Of a stretch of 64,000 nucleotides of DNA, positions 55,666-63,629 are shown one piece after another. Position numbers and translations under genes: made by a program. This DNA comes from Actinomycetota bacterium (lineage in GTDB: Bacteria; Actinomycetota; Thermoleophilia; RBG-16-64-13): assembly GCA_016278725.1 (NCBI GenBank), contig JADQBG010000011.1, positions 62,001 through 126,000 on the forward strand. Reading direction: 5' to 3'. A model generated the notes under the pieces. It worked only from the letters and a program-made list of their open reading frames with translations, was not told the DNA's origin and did not search any database. Every line of letters starts with the position of its first letter. Positions within the stretch are counted from its first letter, which is position 1.

Positions 55666-56073
55666 ATGGAACGGGAATTCCCCACAGACGACGTCGAAAT
55701 GACCGTGCTCCTGGTGGTGAGCGACGTCGAGCGGGCCAAGGTCTTCTACCGCGACGTGCTGGGCGCCTCGCTCTACCGCGAGTACGCGGGCACCAGCGTG
55801 GTTCTCAGCTTCCAGGGGACCTGGCTCCTCCTGGTCACCGGGGGCGGCCCCACCGACGACAAGCCAAACGTCACCTTCGCTCCGCCCGCCGACCCCAACC
55901 GAGTCAGCCACGAGCTCACCTTGCGCGTCCCCGACTGCCACGACGCGTACGAGGCCCTGCGGGCCCGCGGCGCCCAGTTCCTTACACCTCCCATGACCCG
56001 GGGCAGCGAGACCAGAGCCTTCTTCCGCGATCCCGATGGGCATCTGCTCGAAATCAGCTCAATCGCGACGTGA
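55666..56073 (+). CDS. VOC (glyoxalase/bleomycin-resistance) family protein
   Basis: This 135-residue protein has the paired beta-alpha-beta-beta-beta modules of the vicinal-oxygen-chelate superfamily: VLLVVSDVERAKVFYRDVLGA in the first half and ETRAFFRDPDGHLLEISS with the C-terminal metal glutamate. It could be a dioxygenase, glyoxalase or drug-binding protein; substrate is unknown. GAGGAGG lies 6 nt before ATG 55666. It stands alone on the plus strand among minus-strand genes and is enclosed by 12-bp inverted repeats, suggesting it arrived as a module. Confidence 0.88.
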   Translation: MEREFPTDDVEMTVLLVVSDVERAKVFYRDVLGASLYREYAGTSVVLSFQGTWLLLVTGGGPTDDKPNVTFAPPADPNRVSHELTLRVPDCHDAYEALRARGAQFLTPPMTRGSETRAFFRDPDGHLLEISSIAT

Positions 56074-56194: not shown

Positions 56195-57337
56195 TTACGG
56201 CAAGGCCAGCGGCTGTGCACCCTTTGCTTCCGCCGCGGCCGCCGCCTCGGCGTGCAGCTGCACGCGGGCCAAGTAGACCGCCAGCGGCCGGTAAGCCATG
56301 TGCGCCCACTTGCCGAAGGGCACCTCCAGCACCAGCATGGGCACGACCCCCATCAGGTGAATGACGTAGGTCACGTTGGCCGCCGCATCCAGGCCTGAGC
56401 GGTGAAGTACGTGCTGCAAGACCCCGGTCGTCGCCACCACCAGGAGCAGGATCAGGAAGATCCAGTCCGACTCATGAGAGTGGGTGTGCTGGGGGGAATC
56501 GCGCCGTAGCCGCCCGCGGAGATTCAGCAGCACGGCGCCGATCAGACCCGCCGAGGCCAGGTAGCCGAACACGTGCACCCGCCAGTCGATTTCCGGTCCG
56601 CTCGCCAGCTCACCCAGGAAGAACATGACCAGCACCAGCATGGTGACGTAACTCAGCATCAGGGCCAGGTGCACCGCCCAGGGACGTTTGCGGTCACACT
56701 CCCTGTACTTGGGCTGCGCGAAGAAGTGCACGGGCAGCGCCGGGAGGCTCACCAGATAGGAGCTCAAGGAAGCTCGCACATCTCCGGCTTTGGTGAAAAA
56801 GCGCCACATGCGCGCCACGTTCATGCCCAGCAGGAATACCAGCAATCCGGCCATGGCCCAGTCGAAGACGTGGATCTTCGCGCTCGGCAGAAAGGCGTTG
56901 GGGCCGTCATAGTTGTTGATGCTGCCCTGAGACATGCCGAACAAGGTGAAGCCGATTCCGGTCGCGATCGCGGCCAGGACTATGATCAGCAACTCCCACT
57001 TCCAGGAGCGGTAGAACAGCCGCGAGATGCCGGTGAAGTCGTACTTGGAAGTCAGCCAGCGGCGCATGCTCATCATGGTCTCGGCCGGTTCCGCTCCCTT
57101 GGGGCACTGCTCCGAGCACTCTCCGCAGTAGTAGCAGAGCCACGGCTCCAGGGATCCCTGTAACTTATCCTCGGCCCCGAGTTGCAGGGCATGCATGGAC
57201 CGCCGCGGGATCACGTGCCGCGCCTCGGAGTGCACACACAGCGCCGAGCAGTTGCCGCAGTTGAAGCACTTGCTCACGTCTTCGGCCCCGTAGGCTTCCA
57301 GCTCGTCGGCGAGCCCCGGGTTCAATCGTGTCGCCAT
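56195..57337 (-). CDS. QmoC-like membrane FeS/cytochrome b subunit
   Basis: The protein fuses an HdrC-type dicluster domain (from the upstream TTG reading: Cys34/37/40/44 in CFNCGNCSALC and Cys78/81/84/88 in CYYCGECSEQCP) to a five- or six-helix NarI/HdrE-like membrane part with histidines suited to heme b. This is the layout of QmoC, which exchanges electrons between quinone and HdrA-like QmoA/B. I use ATG 57337 (380 aa), 4 nt after GAGGAG; numbers then drop by 10. It is the last gene of the tusA-hdr operon. Other HdrC-cytochrome b fusions are possible. Confidence 0.85.
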   Translation of the reverse strand: MATRLNPGLADELEAYGAEDVSKCFNCGNCSALCVHSEARHVIPRRSMHALQLGAEDKLQGSLEPWLCYYCGECSEQCPKGAEPAETMMSMRRWLTSKYDFTGISRLFYRSWKWELLIIVLAAIATGIGFTLFGMSQGSINNYDGPNAFLPSAKIHVFDWAMAGLLVFLLGMNVARMWRFFTKAGDVRASLSSYLVSLPALPVHFFAQPKYRECDRKRPWAVHLALMLSYVTMLVLVMFFLGELASGPEIDWRVHVFGYLASAGLIGAVLLNLRGRLRRDSPQHTHSHESDWIFLILLLVVATTGVLQHVLHRSGLDAAANVTYVIHLMGVVPMLVLEVPFGKWAHMAYRPLAVYLARVQLHAEAAAAAEAKGAQPLALP

Positions 57338-57384
57338 CGTTCTCCTCGATCGTTCGGACGTTGACAAAGGAAGCTCATCATCCG

Positions 57385-57870
57385 CTAGATGAACAGGTTC
57401 ACGTTGGCTTCGTCGGCTTCGCCCAGATAGGCGGCCACCCCGGCGAACTCCACGCCGTCCACCAGTTCTTCCTCGCAGAATCCGAGGATGTCCATGGAGA
57501 GAGTGCAGGCGACGAATTTCACGCCCTGTTCCCTGGCGCTCTCGACCAGCTCATCGAGGGACATGGCGTTCTGTTGCTTCATCACCTTCTTCATGAGAGG
57601 CGCGCCCGCGCCGGCAAAGTTCATCTTGGAAAGGCCCAGACGCCCGGTGCCTTTGGGCATCATCCGCCCGAACATCGACTGCAGGGTGCTCTTCTTGTGA
57701 CCGTTGGTCGACACCTTCCCGTCTTTGCGCAGCACGTTCAGCCCCCAGAAGGTGAAGAACATGGTGACCTCATCCCCCATGGCGGCGGCTCCGTTGGCGA
57801 TGATGAAGGCCGCCATCACCCGGTCGAAGTCGCCGCTGAACAGGATGATGGTCTTCTTGCTGGTATCCAC
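57385..57870 (-). CDS. DsrE2-family sulfur-trafficking protein
   Basis: This 161-residue protein belongs to the DsrE/DsrF-like DsrE2 family: DFDRVMAAFIIANGAAAMG, VTMFFTFWGLNVLRK and the reactive-cysteine segment VACTLSMDILGFC (Cys122, Cys132), ending GEADEANVNLFI. Relatives carry persulfide sulfur between TusA and sulfur enzymes. GTG 57870 has AAGGAGG upstream. It lies between the wHTH gene and the QmoC-like gene in one operon with tusA, which supports a relay role. Confidence 0.92.
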   Translation of the reverse strand: MDTSKKTIILFSGDFDRVMAAFIIANGAAAMGDEVTMFFTFWGLNVLRKDGKVSTNGHKKSTLQSMFGRMMPKGTGRLGLSKMNFAGAGAPLMKKVMKQQNAMSLDELVESAREQGVKFVACTLSMDILGFCEEELVDGVEFAGVAAYLGEADEANVNLFI

Positions 57871-57898
57871 TATCGTCCTCCTTCGCCGTCGGGGCTCA

Positions 57899-58189
57899 TC
57901 ACAGCTCCCGGGGAACGGCCTGGTATTGGAAGTAGCCTTCGTCGGTCGCCTCTTTGATCTCGGCGACGTATCCGTACTTGCGCATGCCCATGATCCAGAA
58001 GACCACCTCGTGGGTCGGCCGGCCGATCGCCTCGGCGATCTCGGGCACCGTGAGCGGTCCCTCGGCCAGCACCTCGAGAATCCGCGCCCTCATGAAGTGC
58101 TCGTCCCGGATGATCTCCCGCACGTCGCGGTTGGCCACTGCCGGGGCGGGCCGGTTTCCATTGGAACCGGAGCCGAGAGCGGCGCTCAT
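57899..58189 (-). CDS. Small winged-helix protein in the hdr operon
   Basis: The 96-residue product has a helix-turn-helix of winged type: FMRARILEVLAEGPLTVPEIAEAIGRPTHEVVFWIMGMRKYGYVAE would be the recognition region (about 35-80), followed by an EGYFQYQA strand pair. It could regulate the operon or serve as a docking subunit, as no ligand site is visible. ATG 58189 overlaps the hdrA TGA (ATGA), so expression is coupled to hdrA; longer frames run inside hdrA and are not real. Confidence 0.75.
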   Translation of the reverse strand: MSAALGSGSNGNRPAPAVANRDVREIIRDEHFMRARILEVLAEGPLTVPEIAEAIGRPTHEVVFWIMGMRKYGYVAEIKEATDEGYFQYQAVPREL

Positions 58190-59922
58190 ACCCCCACCCC
58201 CAGCATGCCGTCGATCATGGAGCGGATCTGCGCGTCCGTGTAACCCTGCAGGTCGATGGCGCCCACCGGACAGACCGGTACGCACCCCCCGCACCCCTTG
58301 CAGGCGGTCTTGGCGATCACCGCGACCTCCTTGCCCGCGTGCTGGTCCTGCGAGATGGCGTCGTAGGGGCAGGTGTCCTGACAGGCGCCGCACCACTCGC
58401 AGACGTCCAGGTCGACCGTGGCGACCAGCGGGTCGAGTTCGGCGAAACCCCGTTTGAGGATGGCGGCGCTCTGTGAAACCGCGGCGAGACCCGACTGCAC
58501 GCTCTCCGAGGAGTTCCGCGGGGCCTGGCAGCAGCCGGCGATATAAACGCCGTCCACCACCGTCTCCACCGGGCGCAACTTCGGGTGGATCTCGTTGAAG
58601 AAGCCGCTCTGGCCCACCGGTAGCTTGAGCGCCTTGGTCAAACCCTGGTTCTCTCTGGGCACCATGCCGGTGACCAGCACGACCAGGTCGGCGTCCAAGG
58701 CGAGTTCCTCCCCTTCGGAGAGGAGGTCGCGGGCCGTCACGGTGAGCCGGCCGCTCTGCGGGTCCTTCTCGATGGTCGGCGGCTCTTCGTCGGGGTATTT
58801 CACGTAGGCGGAGCCCTTTTCCAGCGACTCGGCGTAGAGCAGCTCGAAGCTGCCGTAGGTGCGCATGTCCCGGTAGAAATGGTACTGGTGCACCCTGCCC
58901 GGCAGCGCATTCACCTGCAACGAGGCGTGTGTGGCGGCGTTGCAGCAGTAGCGCGAGCAGTAAGTGTTGGCCCCTTCCTCGTACTGCGGCTGCCGGCTGC
59001 CCACGCAGTAGACGTAGGCCACGGTCTTCACCGGCCGGCCGTTGTACTCCAGCGGACCGCTCGAGGCCTCCACCAGCTTCTTGAACTCGGCGATGGTGAT
59101 CACGCCGTCCTGTCCGTAACCGAACTCACCGTCCGCCGGCTGATAGGTGTCGAAGCCCGTGGCCACCACGATGGAGCCAACCTGCACCTGAATGGTCTCC
59201 AGCCGTTCCCCCTGAATCGCGATGGTTGCCTGATAGTTGCCGAAGCTGCCGCTCTTCGCGATCAGCTCGGCACTCGTGAAAACGGTGATGTCCGGGTGCG
59301 CGCGGACGGCGCTCTCGAGTTGGGTCACCAACTCCCCGCCGTTACGCCCGTGCGGGTACATCTCCTTGAATTCGGAGACCCATCCGCCCAGCCGGTCTTC
59401 CTTCTCCACGAGAAAGACCGAGAGCCCGATCTGGGCCAAGCCGAGGGCCGCCCGCAGTCCGGCGATGCCGCCACCGACGACCAGGCTCTGCGGCGTGGTC
59501 TCGACCACGATCGACTCGAGAGGCTCGGTCAGGCGGGTGCGGTTGATTCCGGCGCGCACCAGGCGCAGAGCCTTCTCGGTCGCGCCCTCGTGGTCGTCTG
59601 TGTGCGTCCAGGAGCACTGCTCCCGTACGTTCACCTGGGTGTACTGGAAGGGGTTGATGTCCGCGCGGCGGGCCACGTCACGGAAGGTGTAGGTATGCAG
59701 TTTGGGCGAGCAGGAGGCGACCACGAGGCCGTCCAGGCCCTGCTCTCTAGCGTCCGCGACGATCTCCTGCTGCGTCGAGTCGGAGCAGGTGAACATCGCC
59801 GTCTTGGCGACCGCGACCCCCGGCTCCTTGGACGCCGCCTCCACCACCCGGTCTACGTCGACGTAGTCGCCGATGTTGCCCCCGCACTGACAGACATAGA
59901 CTCCGATCTTGCGGGCGCTCAT
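58186..59922 (-). CDS. hdrA: HdrA/Qmo-like FAD iron-sulfur oxidoreductase
   Basis: This 578-residue subunit has the N-terminal HdrA cysteine domain (VYVCQCGGNIGDYVDVD with Cys11/13, TAMFTCSDSTQQEI with Cys46, ASCSPKLH with Cys71), an FAD-binding GGGIAGLRAA (150-159), a central cysteine cluster (CVGSRQPQ and CSRYCCNAATHASL) and two C-terminal ferredoxin motifs (CEWCGACQDTCP, CKGCGGCVPVCP). HdrA subunits bifurcate or branch electrons at the flavin. No HdrB-type catalytic subunit is encoded nearby, as in Qmo complexes. It overlaps both neighbours by 4 bp. Confidence 0.93.
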   Translation of the reverse strand: MSARKIGVYVCQCGGNIGDYVDVDRVVEAASKEPGVAVAKTAMFTCSDSTQQEIVADAREQGLDGLVVASCSPKLHTYTFRDVARRADINPFQYTQVNVREQCSWTHTDDHEGATEKALRLVRAGINRTRLTEPLESIVVETTPQSLVVGGGIAGLRAALGLAQIGLSVFLVEKEDRLGGWVSEFKEMYPHGRNGGELVTQLESAVRAHPDITVFTSAELIAKSGSFGNYQATIAIQGERLETIQVQVGSIVVATGFDTYQPADGEFGYGQDGVITIAEFKKLVEASSGPLEYNGRPVKTVAYVYCVGSRQPQYEEGANTYCSRYCCNAATHASLQVNALPGRVHQYHFYRDMRTYGSFELLYAESLEKGSAYVKYPDEEPPTIEKDPQSGRLTVTARDLLSEGEELALDADLVVLVTGMVPRENQGLTKALKLPVGQSGFFNEIHPKLRPVETVVDGVYIAGCCQAPRNSSESVQSGLAAVSQSAAILKRGFAELDPLVATVDLDVCEWCGACQDTCPYDAISQDQHAGKEVAVIAKTACKGCGGCVPVCPVGAIDLQGYTDAQIRSMIDGMLGVGV

Positions 59923-62654
59923 ACCGTGACCTTCGCTTTCGACTCTTCCTTCGCTTTCGGCTCTTCCTTCGCTTTCAGCTTTTCCACGTGGGCCGCAGCC
60001 TGGGCCACAGCGGCTCCGGCGTGCAGGATGGAATCCGGGATGTCCTTGACGCCCGAGGCCGCGCCGGCGACGAACACGCCGGGAAGGTTGGTGCGCCCGG
60101 GATCGATGTCCTCGTCGGCCTCACCGACGTAGAAGTACTCGTCCAAGGCCAGGGAACCCTCTTCAAACAGCCCCGCGACCTCGAGGTTCGGTTGAACGCC
60201 CACCGCCAGGACGACCATGTCGTACTCGGCTTCGACCACTCCGCCGTCCCCTTCTACGTCTTCATAACGAACGATGAGGTTGCCGTCCTCTTTCTCGGTG
60301 ATCTTGGCCACGCGGCCTTTGATGAACACGGCGCCCATGTCCTTGGCCTGCTGATAGAACTCGTCGTAGCCCTTGCCCACCGCACGCACGTCCATGTAGT
60401 GGACGGTCACGTCCGCGAGCGGCAGGGCGCCCATCACGAGCTGATTGTGCTTTACGGAGTACATGCAGCAGATCCGCGAGCAAAGCGGGTTATCCACGGT
60501 GGCATCGCGCGATCCGGTGCACATTATGTAGGCGATGTTGTCGGGGACCTTGCCGTCTCCGGGCCGCACCACCGAATTGAAGGGCCGGGTGGGAGCGAGC
60601 AGGCGGTCCATCTGCATACCGGTGATCACGTTGCGGTAGCGCCCATAGCCGTACTCCGGCTTCGCGTCCGCCGGAAAGAGCTTGAACCCGGTGGCCAGCA
60701 CGACAGAGGTGACGTCGACCTCCATCTCCTCGGGCCGCATGTCCAGCTTCACCGCGTCGGCCGGACAGGCGTCCACGCAGGCATGGCACTCGGAGCAAAC
60801 CCCGCAATCGAGGCAGCGGGCGGTGCTGTCCAGCGCCTGCTCCTCGGTCATCGTCGCTTCGGTCTCGGCAAAGTCGATGGGAGCGGCGCTCATCGTCTCG
60901 CTGGATTCGAGCGGCTCGCGGCGGTCATAGACGTCCTGCCGCCGGAGCACCTCGAGCTTGTCCACGCGGGGCAAGAACTCCTCGAAGGCGGCGGGATCCA
61001 GCTCGGTTCCTTCGAGGTACCGGTCGATCATGAAGGCGGCGCGGCGTCCCTGGCCCACCGCCTGAGTGATCATGGTGGGGCCTGTGACCACGTCACCGGC
61101 CGCGAAGATCTGAGGAACGGCGGTCTGCAGCGTGCCCGGATCGGCCTTAAGCGTTCGGTTCGGGTTGGTTTCGAGACCAAATGCCTCGGTGTCCGCGCCC
61201 ATCCCCGCGGCCACGATGACCACGTCGCACTCCAACTGCTTGCGCATCTTCTCGTCGTATTCAGGAGCAAAGCATCCGTCGGCGTCAAAGACACAGGTGC
61301 AACGCTTGAGCTCAGCTCCCTGCACGCGCTCCCCGCCGGTCAGTTCGGCAACGCCCCAGCCGTCATGAAGCGTGATGCCTTCGGCCTTGGCTTCCTCGAC
61401 CTCGAAATCATGGGCGGGCATCTCGTCGCAGCTTTCCAGACTGGCCTGATGCACGGAACCGGCGCCCAGGCGCCTTGCCGTGCGGGCCGCGTCGATGGCG
61501 ACGTTGCCCCCGCCGACCACCAGCACCTGCTTGCCCGCGAGATCCACGTCCTCTCCGAGCTTGACCGCCCGCAGGAACTCGAGGGCGGTGGTGACCCCTT
61601 GCTTGTCCTCCCCGGGTACGCGCAGGCGCACCGACCGGTGGGTACCCGCCGCCACCAGGACGGCGTCATAACCGTCGTACAGCAGCCCTTGAGCGTCCTC
61701 CACCCTGGTCTGCGTGGCGATCTCGACCCCGAGCGACGTCACGTTGGCTATGTCGTCGTCGATGACCTCATTGGGCAGCCGGTAAGCCGGGATGCCCAAC
61801 CGCAGCATGCCGCCTGGCTGGGGGGCCGACTCGAAGATCTTGACGCCGTAGCCCTTGCGGGCGAGTTGCCAGGCTGCGGTCAATCCCGCCGGCCCCGAGC
61901 CGACCACGGCCACCTTCTTTCCGTTGGATTCGGGAGCCTCCGGGCTCGGCTGGAATTCCTGGCCATAGCGCCGGTCGGCGATGAAGCGCTTGAGCTGACG
62001 GATGGGCAAAGCCCCTTCCAGCTCGCCCCGGGTGCATTGCTCCTCGCAGGGCGCGTAACAGGCACGCCCCAGGCTGCCCACCAGCGGAGTGGACTCCAAC
62101 ACCAGTTCGAAAGCCTCGTCATATTGGCCGCTGCGCACCCGCGCCACGTAGCCGTGAGCTTTGATGCCGGCGGGGCATTCATGGGTGCACGGCGAGACCC
62201 CGGCGCGGTCGACGACCGCCTTCTTCGGCACCGCTTGGGGGAAGGCTATGTAGGCTGCCCGCCGCGACACCATGTCCGCGTTGAACTCATCCGGCACCGC
62301 GACGTTGCAGGCCATCTCGCACTGCCGACAGCCGGTGCAGGCCGCCTCGTCGACGTACTTGGGGTTCTGCCGGATCTGGGCGTGATAGCCGCCGTTGCCG
62401 TCGCTGCGGATGGACTGGACCTCAGAGTAGGTCAGCACATCGATGTTGGGATGGTGGATGGTGGCGGCCATCTTCGGAGTGGAGATGCAACTGGCGCAGT
62501 CGAGCGTCGGAAACACCTTGCTCAACAGGATCATCTTGCCCCCGACGCTGGGCGCCTTCTCGACCACGAGCACCTTGTAGCCCATGTCTCCCAGCTTGAG
62601 GGCCGACTCCATTCCTCCGATGCCACTCCCGACCACGAGCGCGTCGTATTTCAT
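59919..62654 (-). CDS. HdrA with inserted GltD/NfnB-like NAD(P)H module
   Basis: This 911-residue protein is an HdrA whose chain is opened by a glutamate synthase small-subunit-like module. Residues 1-140 give the HdrA FAD half (VVGSGIGGMESALKLG) with a [4Fe-4S] site (Cys106/109/112/116). Residues ~150-570 form the GltD-like part: cysteines 156, 160, 199, 203, 207, VVGSGPAGLTAAWQLA and the NAD(P)H fold VVGGGNVAIDAARTARRLGA. Cysteines 614-630 then bind clusters and the HdrA C-terminal half resumes. It should tie NAD(P)H to the Hdr/Qmo electron pathway. ATG 62654 has GGAAGG; it overlaps mvhD by 4 bp. The tail is a Lys/Glu repeat. Confidence 0.92.
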   Translation of the reverse strand: MKYDALVVGSGIGGMESALKLGDMGYKVLVVEKAPSVGGKMILLSKVFPTLDCASCISTPKMAATIHHPNIDVLTYSEVQSIRSDGNGGYHAQIRQNPKYVDEAACTGCRQCEMACNVAVPDEFNADMVSRRAAYIAFPQAVPKKAVVDRAGVSPCTHECPAGIKAHGYVARVRSGQYDEAFELVLESTPLVGSLGRACYAPCEEQCTRGELEGALPIRQLKRFIADRRYGQEFQPSPEAPESNGKKVAVVGSGPAGLTAAWQLARKGYGVKIFESAPQPGGMLRLGIPAYRLPNEVIDDDIANVTSLGVEIATQTRVEDAQGLLYDGYDAVLVAAGTHRSVRLRVPGEDKQGVTTALEFLRAVKLGEDVDLAGKQVLVVGGGNVAIDAARTARRLGAGSVHQASLESCDEMPAHDFEVEEAKAEGITLHDGWGVAELTGGERVQGAELKRCTCVFDADGCFAPEYDEKMRKQLECDVVIVAAGMGADTEAFGLETNPNRTLKADPGTLQTAVPQIFAAGDVVTGPTMITQAVGQGRRAAFMIDRYLEGTELDPAAFEEFLPRVDKLEVLRRQDVYDRREPLESSETMSAAPIDFAETEATMTEEQALDSTARCLDCGVCSECHACVDACPADAVKLDMRPEEMEVDVTSVVLATGFKLFPADAKPEYGYGRYRNVITGMQMDRLLAPTRPFNSVVRPGDGKVPDNIAYIMCTGSRDATVDNPLCSRICCMYSVKHNQLVMGALPLADVTVHYMDVRAVGKGYDEFYQQAKDMGAVFIKGRVAKITEKEDGNLIVRYEDVEGDGGVVEAEYDMVVLAVGVQPNLEVAGLFEEGSLALDEYFYVGEADEDIDPGRTNLPGVFVAGAASGVKDIPDSILHAGAAVAQAAAHVEKLKAKEEPKAKEESKAKVTV
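59932..59985. repeat. Three 18-bp tandem repeats in the HdrA/GltD 3' end
   Basis: Units 59932-59949, 59950-59967 and 59968-59985 encode repeated KAKEEP/KAKEES hexads at the C-terminus of the HdrA-GltD protein. Confidence 0.9.
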
Positions 62655-63088
62655 GCGGTCGCCTTCCGAGATGGTCCCAGGTCGGCCAGGGACCTCGAGT
62701 ATTCGTGCATGTAGTTGGTGAAGGGTTCGGCACAGACCGAGCAGACCGCCGCCATGCGCACCCGCTGGGGTTCGTAGCCCGCCTCGGACAGCAGTTCCTG
62801 CGCATCCGTCATCACGCCGGCGGTGCGCTCTGCACAATCGGGCAGGTAAGCGCACTCTTCGCCGTCGGCGGCGATGAACACCCCGTCGAAGCCCTGCTGT
62901 ACCGCGTAGAGAATCCAGCTCGGCTTGATACCGCTGGTGCAGGGCAGGCTGATCACCATCACGTTGGGCGAGTAGTGCATGTGCGAACTGCCCGCCAGGT
63001 CTATGCCGGGGTCCGAAATGTTGTTGGTGGAGAAGACCAGGATTCGCGGTGCGATCGCCTGGCTCTCGCCTGTCGCAGTCGCAGTCAT
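62651..63088 (-). CDS. mvhD: MvhD/FrhD-like iron-sulfur electron-transfer subunit
   Basis: This 145-residue protein resembles the MvhD/HdrD-partner delta subunit that passes electrons to HdrA via a [2Fe-2S] cluster. The five cysteines are Cys50 (SLPCTSGIKP), Cys79 (GEECAYLPDC, with Cys85) and Cys116/119 (VCSVC), with FDGVFIAADGEECAY matching the family core, though spacing is diverged. ATG 63088 overlaps the tusA stop (TAATG) and its stop overlaps the next gene by 4 bp. It probably links the HdrA proteins to an electron donor or acceptor. Confidence 0.85.
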   Translation of the reverse strand: MTATATGESQAIAPRILVFSTNNISDPGIDLAGSSHMHYSPNVMVISLPCTSGIKPSWILYAVQQGFDGVFIAADGEECAYLPDCAERTAGVMTDAQELLSEAGYEPQRVRMAAVCSVCAEPFTNYMHEYSRSLADLGPSRKATA

Positions 63089-63339
63089 TACTTCATCTTC
63101 TTGACGAAGAGCTTCAGGAAGCCGGGCTCCTCGACGTTGCCCAAGTAGTCGTGCCCCATCTTCTTGCACCAGGCCGGGATGTCTTTGAGCGTCCCGGTGT
63201 CGGTCGCCTGGACTTCCATCACCCCGCCGACGGATACCCCCGGCATGCCCTTCTTGGCAGCAAGGATGGGACCCGGGCAGGAGGTGCCGCGCGCATCCAC
63301 GACCTTCTCCACTTGAATCGAGCTGAGGTCCAACGTCAT
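63088..63339 (-). CDS. tusA: TusA-family sulfurtransferase
   Basis: TusA (83 aa) carries persulfide sulfur on Cys21 within the CPxP motif DARGTSCPGPILAAKKG, the universal TusA signature, and keeps the second-half AWCKKMGHDYL. Here it heads the mvhD-hdrA-hdrA-wHTH-dsrE2-qmoC operon, so it probably delivers or accepts sulfur for the DsrE2/Hdr system rather than only tRNA thiolation. ATG 63339 has GAGGAG 8 nt upstream. A promoter with CsoR/CstR-like sites lies about 100 bp upstream. Confidence 0.95.
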   Translation of the reverse strand: MTLDLSSIQVEKVVDARGTSCPGPILAAKKGMPGVSVGGVMEVQATDTGTLKDIPAWCKKMGHDYLGNVEEPGFLKLFVKKMK

Positions 63340-63428
63340 TTGCTCTTCTCCTCGTGTCGTTTCGCACTTTGTGATTGTGTTCCGTTTCGCAACGTCTGAG
63401 GTACCGAGCTCGAGAAAGCTCTCACAAA

Positions 63429-63459
63429 TACCCCTGGGGGTTTTGTACCATGGGGGGTA
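63429..63459. promoter_or_regulatory. Pair of CsoR/CstR-like operator sites
   Basis: Two 14-bp sequences, TACCCCTGGGGGTT (63429-63442) and TACCATGGGGGGTA (63446-63459), start 17 bp apart on the plus strand. Both fit TACC-N3-GGGGGT, like the G-tract operators of the copper/persulfide-sensing CsoR family (for example B. subtilis TACCCTACGGGGGTA). One lies inside the promoter spacer and one over the expected start site, which suits repression. No csoR/cstR gene is in the window. Confidence 0.6.
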
Positions 63460-63471
63460 TACGCTTGACAA
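63442..63471 (-). promoter_or_regulatory. Sigma70-like promoter of the tusA-hdr operon
   Basis: On the minus strand TTGTCA (63471-63466) and TACAAA (63447-63442) are separated by 18 bp that contain most of the second operator-like site. Transcription would begin near 63436, leaving a leader of about 97 nt. Confidence 0.55.
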
Positions 63472-63553: not shown

Positions 63554-63629
63554 TGGTGGAGGTAAGGGGACTCGAACCCCTGACCTCAACGCTGCCAGCG
63601 TCGCGCTCTCCCAGCTGAGCTATACCCCC
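63554..63629 (-). tRNA. tRNA-Ala (anticodon GGC)
   Basis: The 76-nt sequence folds as a full cloverleaf: acceptor GGGGGTA/TACCTCC, D stem GCTC/GAGC, anticodon loop CTGGCAG with anticodon GGC, T loop GGTTCGAGTCC and an encoded CCA end. It reads GCC alanine codons. A strong terminator follows directly, so it is a single transcript. Confidence 0.97.

Follow-up and report, generated by a model that had tools for sequence, protein, structure and literature searches.

Several arrangements of HdrA-like proteins have already been described that resemble parts of the locus considered here. HdrL, either a fusion of HdrA with glutamate synthase or a large HdrA with NADH-binding domains, was reported together with MvhD in Desulfobacterium autotrophicum and in locus VI of Desulfotomaculum reducens, as these loci are presented in the accessible text of the two reports (PMC2702500, PMC4759654). 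More recently, the main text of a survey of Qmo proteins introduced a 'type II' QmoABC, in which HdrA-like QmoAB occur with or without Dsr/Apr, and left its role to further experiments (Neukirchen 2023, PMC10504309). The replacement of QmoC by HdrBC was reported there for the Qmo of Gram-positive sulfate reducers (PMC10504309).

The locus lies within a window of 64,000 nucleotides (positions 62,001 to 126,000 of contig JADQBG010000011.1) from the genome of an actinomycetotal bacterium (GCA_016278725.1), the window being the whole stretch of DNA analysed. Seven genes on the minus strand (56195-63339) form an operon, in the order tusA, mvhD, hdrA with a GltD insert (hdrL), hdrA, a winged-helix gene (wHTH), dsrE2 and qmoC. 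The first, tusA (63088-63339), encodes a sulfur carrier with a CPGP motif and a Cys21 that is invariant in 64 homologues (Pfam TusA, 67.4 bits). It is followed by an mvhD-like gene (62651-63091) for an Fe-S subunit with five invariant Cys residues (Pfam FlpD/MvhD, 101.3 bits); its start is a GTG, with an alternative ATG at 63088. The hdrL gene (59919-62654) contains Pfam Pyr_redox_2 (153.7 bits) and Fer4_20 matches in an HdrA frame, together with NCBIfam and PDB matches, and the second hdrA (58186-59922) encodes a protein with a C-terminal 2x[4Fe-4S] region that scores 470.5 bits with the HdrA2-like model and 386 bits with PDB entry 5odc. The remaining genes encode a small acidic winged-helix protein (57899-58189) with a weak winged-helix family match, a DsrE2-like sulfur carrier (57385-57870; Pfam DrsE_2, 210.1 bits; closest solved relative 3pnx) with an invariant Cys122 (kept in at least 95% of 51 homologues), and a QmoC-like protein (56195-57337; NCBIfam qmoC, 173.9 bits) that combines an HdrC part bearing two [4Fe-4S] motifs with a membrane part bearing conserved His residues. 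The curated NCBIfam cut-offs are 1100 for the HdrA2-like model and 300 for the qmoC equivalog, and because the window proteins score below both, HdrA and QmoC are named '-like' only.

From tusA to wHTH the genes overlap, by 1-4 bp at the first junction and by 4 bp at each of the next three, and gaps of 28 and 47 bp separate wHTH from dsrE2 and dsrE2 from qmoC, respectively. The original prediction of seven co-directional genes was borne out in its coordinates and junctions and, by Pfam and NCBIfam searches, in its family names, HdrA and QmoC counting as '-like' proteins. Upstream, the operon is bordered by a tRNA-Ala gene (63554-63629); downstream lie an unrelated small frame on the opposite strand (55666-56073) and then uvrA. 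Within the window, no genes for HdrB, AprAB, Dsr or LbpA stand beside the operon. Their absence, already noted in the original prediction, holds for this locus, but for HdrB it is limited to this version of the operon, about half of the relatives carrying HdrC and a one-CCG HdrB.

When 84,980 species genomes were scanned with the second HdrA, 258 related stretches were obtained, and the best 80 were taken as loci. These 80 loci are spread over Actinomycetota, Chloroflexota, Bacillota, Myxococcota (one titled Deltaproteobacteria), Armatimonadota and Dormiibacterota, and share a near-constant order, tusA-mvhD-hdrL-hdrA-wHTH followed by QmoC or by HdrC and HdrB, with dsrE2 mostly last. Counting only loci whose contig leaves enough sequence, among these best 80 of 258 stretches tusA is present in 63/63, wHTH in 73/73, an outlet unit (QmoC or HdrBC) in 65/65 and a DsrE-family carrier in 41/44, while the genes flanking the module differ from locus to locus. 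The recurrence of this order in 80 loci and many phyla makes the operon more than a product of chance. The co-occurrence expected if the seven families formed one system was thereby found, and the order is not unique to this contig.

Within HdrL, the GltD/NfnB-like NAD(P)H domain spans about residues 154-550. The nucleotide site of the window protein, GGGNVAIDAAR...LES, is NADH-like, many relatives having YRR instead, and its LES end suggests the use of NADH rather than NADPH. HdrL proteins that are otherwise alike were seen to differ at this site of the GltD insert, some having YRR (NADPH-like) and others LES/LE (NADH-like). For comparison of the core, AprAB-linked Qmo genes from seven hosts served as the reference set. 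QmoA of this set is 33-36% identical to the HdrA part of HdrL; QmoB, a single HdrA-MvhD fusion, is 28-30% identical to the cluster HdrA over about 620 aa, and its C-terminus is 24-31% identical to the window MvhD. The ligand motifs for Fe-S, haem and NAD(P) are all retained. The 81 cluster HdrA proteins form one clade (support 100), apart from both AprAB-linked QmoB and the other HdrA of the genome. By these alignments, HdrL would correspond to QmoA with an NAD(H) module, HdrA to the N-terminal and MvhD to the C-terminal portion of QmoB. With QmoA, QmoB and QmoC homology in its core, the system is a relative of QmoABC to which an NAD(H) site was added and in which QmoB is split, and the operon is predicted to encode a complex on the QmoABC plan with TusA and DsrE2 as dedicated neighbours in place of AprAB. 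The NAD(P)H-binding and quinone-linked parts foreseen in the original prediction are both present, but its placing of the locus apart from Qmo did not hold, given that the core is homologous to QmoABC subunit by subunit and that the window QmoC groups with AprAB-linked QmoC. The same genome also encodes, on contig C15 (L101:5304-12556), another Hdr operon, HdrC-HdrB(two CCG)-HdrA-MvhD, distinct from this one; genes for Fe-S and FAD/NAD subunits come next in it, and the arrangement resembles FlxABCD-HdrABC.

The outlet unit is the variable part of the module. In an alignment of homologues, the window QmoC has eight ligand Cys and four conserved His residues, and with four relatives it clusters with AprAB-linked QmoC (support 100/100); a second type of QmoC, found in Chloroflexota and other clusters, stands apart from this group. 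At exactly the position of QmoC, 35/65 loci of the best 80 of 258 stretches carry HdrC and a one-CCG HdrB, and both forms occur inside the window's own family. The last unit of the module is therefore swappable, which suggests that the chemistry common to both forms lies in the core and not in the outlet; with one core and two outlets, any chemistry on TusA and DsrE2 should be sought in HdrL, HdrA and MvhD, not in HdrB. A single Myxococcales genome (L040 and L119) contains both a TusA-linked cluster with QmoC of the Chloroflexota type and an AprAB-linked Qmo locus, the QmoC of the latter being 56% identical to that of the window; this hints at QmoC exchange between TusA-linked and AprAB-linked systems.

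The window TusA is the sole TusA of its genome. In some Chloroflexota and Actinomycetota, the module has two TusA proteins and an additional member of the DsrE family in which a Cys is conserved. Some Bacillota and others (L074:3513-3926, L079:6919-7335 and 11 more loci) encode, beside the cluster, a protein of 137-140 aa with a conserved HxC motif; a Pfam search returned no match for it, and it may be an unrecognized DsrE-type carrier. A true DsrC was also sought, and the single sub-threshold match was rejected on account of a stop within its frame.

The winged-helix protein was followed with a profile run on 61 genomes sampled among the window's relatives, the window's genome counted in, of which 16 carry it. 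In 12/12 inspected loci, including that of the window, hdrA immediately precedes its gene and the outlet unit or dsrE2 follows; the gene belongs to the invariant set of the module and is no incidental neighbour. Its relatives have a median pI of 5.4, an alignment of homologues reveals no conserved Cys, and the AlphaFold model is a plain winged helix of ArsR/SmtB-like form (pLDDT 87.5); no strong PDB match to the profile was found. The acidic pI and the invariance suggest a structural role, the alternative being a regulator, and the protein is a marker of the module and probably a part of the machine. A DsrD-like activator was considered and set aside, the model matching generic ArsR/SmtB winged helices, with DsrD not among the matches listed.

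In the promoter region of tusA, two adjacent G/C-tract inverted repeats were read in the sequence (63426-63462, on neither strand in particular) as candidate CsoR-family operators. They sit between and over a possible -35 (63466-63471) and a possible -10 (63442-63447). This element is retained in a genome of the same genus (G050) despite differing flanks; similar ATACCC..GGGTAT repeats precede tusA in L036, L048 and L053, and a divergent CsoR-family gene is also found at L036 and L053. A strict CsoR-like consensus gave zero matches in the window and a looser regular expression matched 6/64 upstream regions, some weakly. As the consensus searches are weak, the candidate operator is argued mainly from the same-genus comparison. 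Both CsoR-family genes found in the genome show a copper-type H..C pattern, neither is a CstR candidate, and a persulfide sensor of its own was consequently rejected. Among 130 close neighbours in the relatives, ArsR-family (20), DsrE2-like (9), rhodanese (6) and CsoR-family (6) proteins are among the commonest that are recognizable; the ArsR and CsoR families include reactive-sulfur sensors (PMC9918477, PMC10318464). YeeE/YedE, the transporter that accompanies TusA and DsrEFH in YTD clusters, does not appear among the 25 commonest of 92 neighbour families. The ArsR genes of actinomycetotal loci have extra Cys residues, and next to Desulfotomaculum-type operons most CsoR-family genes show a C...C-H pattern that lacks the third copper ligand; we take both patterns to resemble those of persulfide sensors. 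Hemerythrin-like and PadR-like genes recur near the cluster in Chloroflexota (L028, L029, L058, L081 and others).

With respect to the hosts, dsrA exceeds its cut-off in 10/50 genomes and is thus absent in 40/50, and aprA is present in 9/50 and absent in 41/50. The proposed independence from sulfate reduction was in this way upheld, the clusters not always being accompanied by aprAB. Neither gene exceeds its cut-off in the window's genome, which is 99.65% complete. COX1-family genes, encoding haem-copper oxidases or relatives, occur in 33/50 host genomes (32/40 without dsrA and 1/10 with it), the window's genome having four such genes, and some of these PF00115 matches may be NO reductases. 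They are found in 18/19 QmoC-bearing hosts vs 13/28 HdrBC hosts, an association with a Fisher p of 0.0006 when relatedness is ignored that is not significant on the tree, where only three independent changes are seen; the link between the QmoC form and oxidases is suggestive only. Nine of the 50 hosts have anaerobic-type genomes with dsrA and without an oxidase, and one direction can therefore not be assumed for all. The dsrA profile also gives matches in controls such as the E. coli genome but has none in the window's genome; the cell may therefore lack a siroheme sulfite reductase for assimilation and may depend on sulfur in reduced form. The dsrA match of the Myxococcales genome (L100, G027:C153) contains one in-frame TAG.

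It is proposed that HdrL, HdrA with MvhD (as a split QmoB) and QmoC would assemble into a membrane-attached flavin/Fe-S complex of the Qmo type, the soluble redox partner of which would be persulfide sulfur on TusA and DsrE2, not APS reductase. Electrons would move among three partners: the carried sulfur (sulfide/thiol vs persulfide), NAD(H) bound by the GltD domain, and menaquinone at the QmoC subunit. We give an even chance to this general scheme of exchange among TusA/DsrE2-bound sulfane sulfur, NAD(H) and menaquinone: in its favour count the subunit homology, the conserved carriers with their Cys residues, the sole TusA of the genome, the rhodaneses and the sulfur-linked regulator families; against it counts that the QmoC version is without any CCG protein, there being none in the operon and the CCG genes of the genome lying on other contigs. 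In the window organism, reduced sulfur would be loaded onto TusA and DsrE2 as sulfane sulfur and its electrons delivered to menaquinone, with part of them possibly bifurcated to NAD+. The midpoint potentials are about -270 mV for sulfane sulfur/sulfide, -75 mV for menaquinone and -320 mV for NAD+; hence, passing electrons from reduced sulfur to menaquinone is exergonic and could drive another electron pair to NAD+, and the reverse reaction needs pmf or another donor. Oxidation is probably the direction in this organism, being the better guess from Qmo homology, carrier conservation, oxidase-family genes and the lack of Dsr/Apr, and the presence of haem-copper oxidase-family genes in most hosts, that of the window included, favours it over sulfur respiration. 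Taken to its fullest extent, the oxidative reading becomes a hitherto unrecognized cytoplasmic route of sulfur oxidation that would rely on neither Dsr, Sox, sHdr nor SQR: Qmo-type loading of TusA/DsrE2 would be coupled to bifurcation to menaquinone and NAD+ with conservation of energy, and HdrBC would be the outlet of the same core in anaerobes; so complete a route appears doubtful.

In Bacillota sulfate reducers, the core with HdrBC instead of QmoC could run the opposite way, and a reductive function has to be weighed for the module as a whole. Electrons from NAD(P)H and menaquinol, by confurcation and with the assistance of pmf at QmoC, would then reduce the sulfane sulfur of TusA/DsrE2 to sulfide, the complex acting as a cytoplasmic sulfur, polysulfide or thiosulfate reductase. 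The accessible text on D. reducens records its related HdrL-HdrA-MvhD-HdrBC locus as more abundant on sulfate (PMC4759654). The cluster itself occurs in Desulfotomaculum-type sulfate reducers with an outlet of HdrC and one-CCG HdrB, a layout common to DsrK. The usual reaction of GltD domains, such as that in HdrL, is the oxidation of NAD(P)H, which again agrees with reduction of sulfur; however, most hosts are without dsrA and have COX1-family genes, and menaquinol is a poor donor to sulfane sulfur (about -75 vs -270 mV), such that a reductase is possible but on balance unlikely. Alternatively, TusA and DsrE2 could be thiol/disulfide electron carriers, as was proposed for DsrC with Flx-Hdr, or biosynthetic sulfur donors, with the complex serving mainly to balance electrons among NADH, menaquinone and disulfides and not as an oxidoreductase of sulfur compounds. 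TusA does have a biosynthetic role in other bacteria, the only TusA of this genome lies here and a search for siroheme reductases of the dsrA superfamily found none in the genome, but a dissimilatory or detoxifying handling of sulfur accords better with the joint conservation of two or three carrier families with the Hdr core and with the rhodanese genes and sulfur-linked regulators nearby; we judge such a balancer improbable. Full oxidation of sulfane sulfur to sulfite, sHdr-like, might be thought of given that TusA, DsrE2 and HdrA-like proteins are common to sHdr loci (PMC6067878, PMC4378227). It is very improbable in light of HdrL and MvhD replacing the sHdr set and of the absence of LbpA near the operon and of HdrB from the window version; the four GCV_H matches in the genome are all off the operon's contig, C19 (on C24, C23, C8 and C25). 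The earlier view that this is not an sHdr locus was confirmed on the same two absences.

In comparison with known systems, the module resembles QmoABC in that homologues of QmoA, QmoB and QmoC are all encoded in the operon. It differs in that the QmoB equivalent is not a fusion but a separate hdrA and mvhD with hdrL between them, in the NAD(H) domain of the QmoA-like subunit, in the inclusion of wHTH, TusA and DsrE2, in the missing link to AprAB (no aprA in the window's genome nor in 41/50 hosts), and in a QmoC below the curated cut-off (173.9 vs 300 bits). For 'type II' Qmo, the main text mentions neither the GltD insert nor a pairing with TusA, DsrE2 and wHTH (PMC10504309). With the HdrL clusters, the window shares a GltD-like domain inside an HdrA frame and an adjoining mvhD, and HdrA, HdrB and HdrC are present in some of the published loci; as presented in the accessible text, however, those clusters have formate dehydrogenase or dsr partners, and TusA, DsrE2 and wHTH are not reported there (PMC2702500, PMC4759654). 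In joining an HdrA-like protein to TusA and DsrE carriers at a single locus, the window operon recalls sHdr, but it has neither LbpA nor the HdrB/HdrC pairs and carries NAD(H) and quinone modules instead. Unlike HdrABC-MvhAGD and Flx-Hdr, the operon has no CCG HdrB, hydrogenase or Flx partners, and the YTD/DsrEFH type II clusters, which likewise contain TusA and a DsrE-type carrier, are without the Hdr/Qmo core. In the open-access literature, to which the search was confined (subscription papers and supplements lying outside its scope), no description of a module with TusA, DsrE2 and wHTH was found. HdrL (PMC2702500), the HdrL-HdrA-MvhD-HdrBC locus (PMC4759654) and 'type II' Qmo (PMC10504309) are already published; what is new relative to the searchable literature is the conserved and widely distributed pairing of an HdrL/Qmo core with sulfur carriers and wHTH. 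The role of HdrA-like Qmo/HdrL proteins outside sulfate reduction was explicitly left open (PMC10504309), and the module offers this question a concrete, testable substrate, pointing to sulfur redox metabolism in Actinomycetota and Chloroflexota of peat, permafrost and the subsurface, which are not usually counted as sulfur bacteria.
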